Source: Rhodopseudomonas sp. BR0M22
GTDB lineage: Bacteria; Pseudomonadota; Alphaproteobacteria; Rhizobiales; Xanthobacteraceae
Direction: 5' to 3'
Length of the DNA stretch: 64,000 nt
Assembly: GCF_010907035.1 (NCBI RefSeq)
Contig: NZ_QUMK01000001.1
Coordinates: 1-64,000 of the forward strand
Shown here: positions 1,726 through 4,700 of the stretch, one piece after another
How the letters are laid out: every line of letters begins with the position of its first letter
Position numbering within the stretch: the first letter of the stretch is position 1
The notes under the pieces: generated by a model
The model's input: only the letters and a program-made list of their open reading frames with translations
Databases searched by the model: none
What the model was told of the DNA's origin: nothing
Translations under genes and position numbers: made by a program

Positions 1726-4700
1726 TCACTCCGCCGCCTCGTCCGCCTTCCTCTTCACTGCCTTCGCCGGCCCCTTCTTCTCCAGCACCGGCTTCAAGAA
1801 CTTGCCCGTGTAGCTCCTTGGAGCCTTGACGATGTCTTCCGGCGGGCCCCAGGCGACGATTTCGCCGCCGCCGTCGCCGCCTTCGGGGCCGAGGTCGATG
1901 ACCCAGTCGGCGGTCTTGATGACTTCGAGATTGTGCTCGATCACCACCACGGTGTTGCCCTGCGCGACCAGCTCGTGCAGCACTTCGAGGAGCTTGGCGA
2001 CGTCGTGGAAGTGCAGGCCGGTGGTCGGCTCGTCGAGGATGTAGAGCGTGCGGCCGGTGGCGCGCTTGGACAGTTCCTTGGCGAGCTTGACGCGCTGGGC
2101 TTCGCCGCCGGACAGCGTGGTGGCCTGCTGGCCGACATGGATGTAGTCGAGGCCGACGCGCTGCAGCGTCTTGAAGGTCTCCCGGACGCGCGGCACCGCC
2201 TTGAAGAACTCGGCGGCTTCCTCGACCGTCATGTCGAGCACGTCGGCGATCGACTTGCCCTTGAACAGCACGTCGAGGGTTTCGCGGTTGTAGCGCTTGC
2301 CCTTGCAGACGTCGCAGGTGACGTAGACGTCGGGCAAAAAGTGCATCTCGATCTTGATGACGCCGTCGCCCTGGCAGGCCTCGCAGCGTCCGCCCTTGAC
2401 GTTGAACGAGAACCGGCCCGGCTCGTAACCGCGTGCCTTGGATTCCGGCAGGCCGGCGAACCACTCGCGGATCGGCGTGAACGCGCCGGTGTAGGTCGCG
2501 GGGTTACTGCGCGGGGTGCGGCCGATCGGCGACTGGTCGATGTCGATGATCTTGTCGATGTGCTCGAGGCCCTCGATCCGGTCATGCGGCGCCGGCGGCT
2601 CGGAGGCGTTGTTCAGCTTGCGCGCGATCGCCTTGTAGAAGGTGTCGATCAACAGCGTCGACTTGCCGCCGCCGGAGACGCCGGTGACGCAGGTGAACAG
2701 GCCGAGCGGAATCTCGGCGGTGACGTTCTTCAGATTGTTGCCGCGGGCGTTGACCAGCTTCAGCGTGCGGCGATGGTTCGGCGGCCGGCGCTCCGGCACC
2801 GGCACCGACAATTCGCCGGTGAGATACTTACCGGTCAGCGATTTCGGATTGCGCATGATCTCGGCGGGCGTGCCTTGGGCGATGATGTGGCCGCCATGGA
2901 CGCCGGCGCCGGGGCCGATGTCGAGCACATGGTCGGCGAGCAGGATGGCGTCCTCGTCGTGCTCGACCACGATCACGGTGTTGCCGAGGTCGCGCAGCCG
3001 CTTCAGGGTATCGAGCAGCCGGGCGTTGTCGCGCTGGTGCAGACCGATCGACGGCTCGTCGAGCACGTAGAGCACACCGGTGAGGCCGCTGCCGATCTGC
3101 GAGGCGAGGCGGATGCGCTGGCTTTCGCCGCCCGACAGCGTGCCGGACGAGCGCGACAGCGTCAGATAGTTGAGGCCGACGTCGAGCAGAAAGCTGAGGC
3201 GGTCGCGGATCTCCTTCAGGATACGAACGGCGATCTCGTTCTGCTGGGTGTTGAGCAGCTTCGGCACCGAGGTGAACCAGTCGCCGGCGGCCTTGACCGA
3301 TAGCTCGGAGACCTCGCCGATATGCTTCCCCCCGATCTTGACGCACAGCGCCTCGGGCTTGAGACGATGGCCGTGGCAGGCGTCGCACGGCACGTCGGAG
3401 AAGTACTTGCCCAGTTCCTCGCGCGCCCATTCGCTCTCGGTCTCGCGGAAGCGGCGCTCGATATTGGTGACGACGCCTTCGAATGGCTTCTTGGTGTCGT
3501 AAGAGCGGACGCCGTCTTCGTAGGAGAACTTGATCTCGTCGTCGCCGGAGCCGTGCAGCAGGACGTTCTGGACCTTCTTGGGGAGGTCCTTCCACTTGGT
3601 GTCGAGCGTGAACTTGTAATGCTTGCCGAGCGCGGTCAGCGTCTGCAGGTAGTACGGCGAGGACGACTTCGCCCACGGCGCGATCGCGCCCTTGCGCAGT
3701 GTCAGCTCCTTGTCCGGCACGACCAGGTCGGCGTCGATGTGCTGCTCGATGCCGAGGCCGCCGCATTCCGGACAGGCGCCGTAGGGGTTGTTGAACGAGA
3801 ACAGCCGCGGCTCGATCTCCGGAATAGTGAAGCCGGACACCGGGCAGGCGAACTTTTCCGAAAACAGGATGCGTTCCGGCCCGGATTTGTCGTGGATCTT
3901 GGCGACTTTCTTCGTCGCAGCCTCACCCTTCGAGACGGCGCTTTGCGCCTCCTCAGGGTGGGGGGCTCCCTTCTTGGCCTTGCCGCGTTTGCCGTCCTCA
4001 TCCTGAGGAGCGCCCGCAGGGCGCGTCTCGAAGGATGGCGGCGGTGTCGGCGCATCGGCGAACTCGATCACCGCCAGCCCTTCCGCCAACTTCAGCGCGG
4101 TCTCGAAGCTCTCGGCGAGGCGCTGGCCGATGTCGGGACGCACCACGATCCGGTCGACCACGACGTCGATGTCGTGCGGGAATTTCTTGTCGAGCGTCGG
4201 CGCTTCGGCGAGCTCGTGGAAGCTGCCGTCGATCTTGACGCGCTGGAAGCCCTTCTTCAGCCAGTCGGCGAGTTCTTTCCGGTACTCGCCCTTGCGGCCG
4301 CGCACCACCGGCGCCAAGAGATACAGCCGGGTGCCTTCCGGCAGCGCCAGCACCCGGTCGACCATTTGCGACACGGTCTGGCTTTCGATCGGCAGGCCGG
4401 TCGCCGGCGAATAGGGCACGCCGACGCGGGCCCACAGCAGGCGCATGTAGTCGTAGATCTCGGTGACGGTGCCGACGGTCGAGCGCGGGTTCTTCGAGGT
4501 GGTCTTCTGCTCGATCGAGATCGCCGGCGACAGGCCGTCGATCTGGTCGACATCCGGCTTCTGCATCATCTCAAGGAATTGCCGGGCATAGGCTGACAGC
4601 GACTCGACGTAGCGGCGCTGGCCCTCGGCATAGATGGTGTCGAACGCCAGCGACGACTTGCCGGAGCCGGACAGTCCTGTGAACACCACAAGCTTGTCGC

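Follow-up and report, generated by a model that had tools for sequence, protein, structure and literature searches.

The window analysed here is a stretch of 64,000 nucleotides from Rhodopseudomonas sp. BR0M22. It carries uvrA on the minus strand at positions 1726-4815, a gene of 1029 codons whose product matches the UvrA model NF001503 at 1616 bits. On the same strand, the UvrB-interaction domain (Pfam UvrA_inter, residues 146-253, positions 4057-4380) stops just ahead of a linker of residues 253-311 (3883-4059), and the DNA-binding domain (Pfam, residues 361-469) is encoded at 3409-3735. Between these two domains sit two palindromic units of a repeat family that we call F1. Unit A, at 3999-4037 on the plus strand, is a strict match to CATCCTGAGGAGC-N-CGTCTCGAAGGATG with CCT directly before it; unit B, at 3921-3963, is a degenerate family member with the stem CACCC/GGGTG and lies in the opposite orientation, on the minus strand. 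The spacer between them (3964-3998) ends in this CCT, which is part of the conserved border of unit A.

The first-pass annotation of this DNA had reported an inverted pair of units inside uvrA that is read through in frame. Both the uninterrupted translation and the scores of R1, a covariance model built from 23 of the 26 strict F1 copies in the genome, confirm this: unit A, itself among the 23 building sequences, scored 63.9 bits (E 7e-19), and unit B, absent from the building set, scored 43 bits (E 2.8e-11). Both units folded better than their own shuffles (z -3.6 for A and -4.1 for B). The limits shifted slightly, as the strict match to unit A covers 3999-4037 where 3996-4037 had been given, and the in-frame insert spans residues ~260-299 where 259-301 had been given. 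Half-unit motifs with 2-3 mismatches were no more frequent in the window than in shuffles, and the significance of the match thus rests on the whole unit only. A scan of the whole window against Rfam gave zero matches.

The same family is found between genes at 59284-59326 (plus strand). We found that this copy is half of an inverted dimer, with its partner at 59333-59384 on the minus strand. The inner stem reads GCGCCC/GGGCGC in unit A and GCGGCC/GGCCGC in the intergenic unit, and the two thus differ at one pair that is changed on both sides, as originally claimed; such compensated differences are the usual pattern within F1. Across 23 of the 26 strict copies the unit ends are invariant and the inner stem is variable yet stays paired, with 98.4% of cells paired. 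The covariation score of the stem exceeded that of shuffles (0.191 versus 0.066); pairs changed on both sides numbered 3, no more than in shuffles (2.8).

F1 is a genome-wide family. The strict full-unit pattern has 26 exact copies in the 5.29 Mb genome, all preceded by CCT, and 0 in the reversed control, and R1 gave at least 128 matches (150 of 10702 candidates scored), which correspond to at least 113 distinct units at no fewer than 63 places. Among the matches listed, 50 of the 63 places are inverted dimers and 13 are single units; 43 of these dimers share one arrangement and 7, the uvrA dimer among them, have the other. In their opposite orientation and short spacing, these 50 of 63 places fit BIME-like REP dimers. 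A second family, F2, carries CGTC at its end, then AT in the stem, and a CCA tail, and the pattern CGTCATNNCCGG..CCGGNNATCCA, written to these features, has 78 copies in the genome and 0 in the control. Judged by its ends, F2 is a CGTC-type REP. The F2 copies listed are mostly 29-31 nt long with short loops, and in the uvrA inserts the loop of the first unit is palindromic and longer; CGTC REPs are described with a loop of 4-5 bases and a stem of 8-9 bp, other loop lengths being allowed in Bradyrhizobium, in the cited parts of PMC3733652. A transposase partner for F1 was not found: the genome has a single Y1_Tnp match, with no pattern-found F1 unit within ~1.5 kb, and we therefore rejected a RAYT as the mover of F1. 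Two F2-like units lie ~500-600 bases from this Y1_Tnp gene.

The F1 pair occupies a part of UvrA that has no counterpart in Geobacillus UvrA (2r6f). In the alignment, residue 256 of 2r6f corresponds to residue 252 of the window's UvrA and residue 258 to residue 312, leaving 59 residues (253-311) unmatched. The units had been proposed to explain part of the extra length of this UvrA, which is presumably about 90 residues longer than E. coli UvrA; they do lie inside the stretch unmatched in 2r6f, which is itself larger than the two units. An AlphaFold2 model from 26 sequences, moderate in quality at a mean pLDDT of 67.8 and below 50 in other stretches too, some of them conserved, gives residues 256-311 a pLDDT below 50 and no secondary structure, with block means of 27-32 over 261-310. 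Beyond the linker, the first zinc motif (residues 324-351) reads CPVS...CPEC. One expected cysteine is absent from CPVS, where 2r6f shows CPYC; C324, P325, V326, S327 and G328 are invariant in 26 aligned sequences.

We then compared this linker across 150 UvrA proteins: 123 from 125 rows, two of which were second fragments, and 27 from 28 tried, one of which lacked the right side. The sample holds at least two pairs of identical proteins, perhaps one species twice, and includes the UvrA of R. faecalis (L085), which falls within the genus and is identical to that of another genus member. Linker length was a multiple of three in all 150. In an alignment of 123 of the proteins to a single reference with a short linker (993 aa), all insertions of at least 8 residues lay at reference residues 255-277 or close to an end, no more than 17 residues from the N-terminus or 30 from the C-terminus. 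Palindromic repeats, labelled by eye and from their DNA arms, were recognisable in 24 of the linkers, all in frame, and belonged to several types: F1 in 7 (one eroded), F2 in 6, F3 (GGGGAGGTCG type) in 8 and F5 (CTCTCCCCGC type) in 3. A relationship between F3 and F5 is possible. The remaining 126 linkers bear no labelled repeat. The linkers of L103 and L105, from two other Hyphomicrobiales, hold what appear by eye to be short tandem repeats rather than palindromic dimers. The finding of F1 in few linkers and as a family spread through the genome, rather than in all alphaproteobacterial UvrA or in these copies alone, supports the earlier suggestion that a palindromic element entered uvrA in frame, in the manner known from Rickettsia. 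These data go beyond that suggestion in two respects: the UvrA linker of relatives holds other repeat types, and other genes of this genome hold similar inserts.

The inserts are scattered over the UvrA phylogeny. A FastTree phylogeny of 110 UvrA proteins, calculated with the linker excluded (38 of the 150 were removed for crowding and 2 as short), has 24 rows with a labelled repeat. Insert presence requires 21 changes on this tree and the five labels 23, compared with 22.1 and 23.6 for shuffled labels; the inserts are thus as scattered as chance would have them. Well-supported branches alone force 11 changes in presence, and these parsimony counts include gains and losses alike. Within the genus, the 15 readable linkers (16 searched) comprised F1 in 4, F2 in 1, a probable F2 scar in 4 and, by our criteria, neither in 6. 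Each scar, from 13 linkers tested, matches 16-17 of 20 positions, a value equalled by at most 2 of 2000 codon shuffles. We left a fifth candidate, L035 (15/20, 17 of 2000 shuffles), out of the count; 8 of the 13, the window's own linker included, showed no scar. A target-sequence motif at the uvrA site, looked for by eye only, was not retained; insert borders vary inside the linker. Pattern searches of 23 genomes detected F1 in 19, F2 in 23 and F3 in 15, with 0 in the reversed controls. Genomes bearing F1 in uvrA have 33-97 F1 matches, those bearing F2 there have 7-174 F2 matches (group searched minus L100), and those bearing F3 have 1-35 F3 matches (minus L070); in G064 and G058 the sole F3 match is the uvrA copy itself. 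Among the 20 UvrA inserts tested for reading frame (of 24), 15 use the most hydrophilic open frame, where 6.6 are expected (P 1.2e-4 if independent, which these inserts are not). Together, these results show that unlike repeats recur in one UvrA linker in different lineages.

UvrA is not the only protein of this genome with such an insert. We screened 125 places (63 of F1 and 62 of strict F2, the latter with 78 units) by codon usage on both sides and then with Pfam and NCBIfam, a filter that can overlook units near gene ends or in genes with unusual codons. Five places are intragenic. Besides uvrA, an F1 dimer lies in pyruvate dehydrogenase E2, in the linker after the lipoyl domain (G000:C81 32904-33053; L011, L253); in-frame CGTC-type REP dimers, assigned to F2, lie in the PcrA/UvrD helicase gene (G000:C67 ~5879; L300, L350), where congeners have other repeat types at the same place, and in dnaE2, encoding an error-prone polymerase (G000:C75 ~49446; L309, L380); and a CGTC-type REP, also F2, lies between the two ATPase halves of a fused oligopeptide-type ABC ATPase (G000:C129 ~3069; L336). 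Three of the five, uvrA, pcrA/uvrD and dnaE2, are thus repair or repair-polymerase genes. The probability of at least 3 of 5 is 8e-5, 3e-4, 1e-3 or 4.5e-3 if repair genes make up 2, 3, 5 or 8% of the target, fractions that are assumed and uncorrected for gene length or linker content. Four further candidates were set aside. The frame of L203, a seeming third intragenic F1, looks antisense to another gene on inspection of its translation; L209 passed a looser codon filter only and has 25 codons on one side and 34 on the other; L305 got through the codon filter but lacks a Pfam match; and the unit in L333 (urtB) lies ~25 codons into the frame, ahead of the start of the UrtB model.

We found that two of these sites, like that of uvrA, hold different repeats in different relatives. 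At the uvrD site (26 of 30 loci parsed), all 13 genes of the Rhodopseudomonas group (12 from the genus and G020) contain an insert: F2 in 6, F1 in 3 and the candidate types F5 and F6 in 2 each, the last two labelled partly by eye and one sequence holding Ns. On a tree of the flanking DNA these labels need at least 7 changes, and the window genome (F2) and G012 (F1) are sisters with support 96/95. The site holds 24-78 residues with no firm label in three more family members and 5-9 in 10 genomes from other families of the order. The four unparsed genes, in G007, G009, G015 and G016, are broken across contigs near the insert site, as would be expected of a repeat in draft assemblies. The E2 linker was parsed at all 30 loci, and the 16 genus members comprise F1 in 6, another repeat in 4 (three called by the loose pattern of the script, one by eye) and none recognised in 6; a similar linker repeat was seen by eye in one genome outside the genus. 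At dnaE2 (27 of 30 loci parsed), F2 is present in 13 of 14 genus members and absent from G013, so that within these 14 no alternation of families was seen and the F2 insert is probably a single old insertion. The dnaE2 of G076 (L397) has an open, repeat-rich stretch of 807 nt at the same place. Joints like that of UvrA are present in pcrA/uvrD and in E2, and probably in dnaE2.

Part of this picture has precedent. GTAG/CGTC REPs are short palindromes, often inverted dimers, that are mostly intergenic and in some cases lie in frame in replication and repair genes (Di Nocera, De Gregorio and Rocco 2013, PMC3733652), among them uvrA of O. terrae and Thioalkalivibrio, uvrB of R. conorii, the UvrD/Rep helicase gene and dnaE2. 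F1 and F2 resemble them in being short palindromes, in forming inverted dimers and in lying in frame in repair genes, although F1 is set apart by its ends, where no unpaired terminal GTAG or CGTC was seen by eye in the 26 strict copies. Published work thus already covers REPs that lie in frame in repair genes, uvrA among them, and one same-site case: in the cited parts of that account, REPs occur in genes of one functional category at different sites, with the exception of recB in two Xanthomonas species. The present case differs from that description in having one UvrA linker and one UvrD site that are common to several genera and hold unlike repeats. The RPE, as far as PMC2229807 is cited here, are palindromic inserts in frame in functional conserved genes; by analogy of placement, F1 resembles them in lying in frame in a conserved gene with further copies between genes, and it differs in its Rhodopseudomonas host and in the alternation of unlike repeats at one site, which the cited parts of that source do not describe for the RPE. 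Br-REP1 and Br-REP2 of Bradyrhizobium (PMC5082802, cited in part) are likewise abundant palindromes, in the bacterial family to which the F1 host belongs, but their printed consensus differs from F1 and they are placed in intergenic regions and 3'-UTRs. Searches of one open PMC library turned up no description of unrelated families taking turns at a single coding site; a site common to several genera and filled by unlike repeats, and the change of families within the genus at the uvrD site, thus appear to be new. With one site per gene, unlike inserts, insert-free relatives and scars, all within one genus, the system offers a natural experiment on mobile palindromes domesticated as protein linkers. 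It makes two questions testable, namely whether REP-type inserts in repair genes have any effect and whether the target of selection is the peptide or the hairpin, and it cautions that repeats account for much of how UvrA, UvrD and E2 vary in length within this group.

What keeps such inserts at these sites? Probably, repeat dimers insert widely and persist only in tolerant linkers. An inverted dimer of a REP-like palindrome would have spread through the genome and also entered uvrA, surviving there because it is divisible by three in length, offers an open frame that encodes a hydrophilic peptide and sits in a flexible joint, the one that connects the UvrB-interaction domain to the zinc/DNA-binding part. 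The same filter would recur, with different repeat types entering the joint in different lineages; some inserts would decay to scars, and loss and recombination of alleles may reshuffle the pattern. On this reading F1 would be a mobile element that moves as dimers, and its inserts would be neutral. Tolerance alone does not explain that three of the five intragenic places are in DNA repair or repair-polymerase genes. Intragenic REPs have been discussed both as neutral linkers and as having a mutator role (PMC3733652, in part), and Di Nocera et al. (2013) speculated that inserts in repair proteins are adaptive as protein, changing repair and mutability. The low probabilities given above (8e-5 to 4.5e-3 at the assumed 2-8%) and the naming of the same gene classes in the cited parts of PMC3733652 would fit such adaptation. 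Yet pyruvate dehydrogenase E2 and the ABC ATPase are also hit, the inserts at one site are unlike in sequence, length and type and decay to scars, and long modular proteins have more tolerant joints, which the assumed fractions ignore; we regard adaptation of the protein as very unlikely.

Tolerance of linkers also leaves unexplained the near-constant arms of the F1 inserts in uvrD. The three F1 alleles there, two from Rhodopseudomonas and one from another genus, differ at 2-3 of 90 nt in the arms, 12-13 of 38 in the equal-length spacers and 88-135 of 1200 (7-11%) in the flanks (arms versus spacer, p 2e-6 to 7e-6; arms versus flanks, p 0.005-0.04). In uvrA, the F1 arms of four genomes differ at 0-1 of 15 fourfold sites, compared with 15-25% in the flanks. 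Slow arms beside fast spacers could reflect a selected hairpin, and the hairpins might be kept for a role as nucleic acid (an mRNA hairpin, a translation pause between domains or a DNA structure) that any palindrome serves, with families swapping at a fixed site; the insert in 13 of 13 uvrD genes of the Rhodopseudomonas group, in four types, agrees with this. We nevertheless consider such a role unlikely: 126 of 150 UvrA linkers are without a labelled repeat, the fourfold-site tests are weak (six uvrA pairs, p 0.02-0.3; three uvrD pairs, p 0.02-0.12), and dimers inserted independently, equal in their arms and unlike in their spacers, would give the same picture, REP dimers with spacers alike in length and different in sequence being on record (PMC3733652, in part). 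Less probable again is a stronger form, in which DNA-damage genes (uvrA, pcrA/uvrD, perhaps dnaE2) contain a small number of fixed coding sites that serve permanently as docks for interchangeable palindromes, the hairpin in message or DNA being kept rather than the sequence, and unlike families replacing each other in frame as the arms of the resident stay nearly unchanged. There is a modest chance that linker alleles have been swapped between species by homologous recombination with few real insertions, a reading compatible with the others. Three uvrA alleles of the genus have the same 42 nt of unit A, and so do alleles from two other genera, in which 26-39% of the fourfold sites in the flanks are unlike those of the window; in L061, from a further genus, unit A is truncated; the uvrD F1 alleles of two genera share spacer length and, loop excepted, inner stems; and sister genomes are unlike in insert type. 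Exchange of alleles would not account for the first arrival of unlike repeats at one site, nor for spacers that diverge fast. Flank values of ~42% difference for L071 reflected misalignment, and the aligned comparison was used instead. The likeness of the uvrD arms means either that the arms are conserved or that like dimers were inserted separately. Against separate insertions speaks G020: among its 46 F1 matches, the inner stem of the second uvrD unit was found, by eye, in uvrD only.
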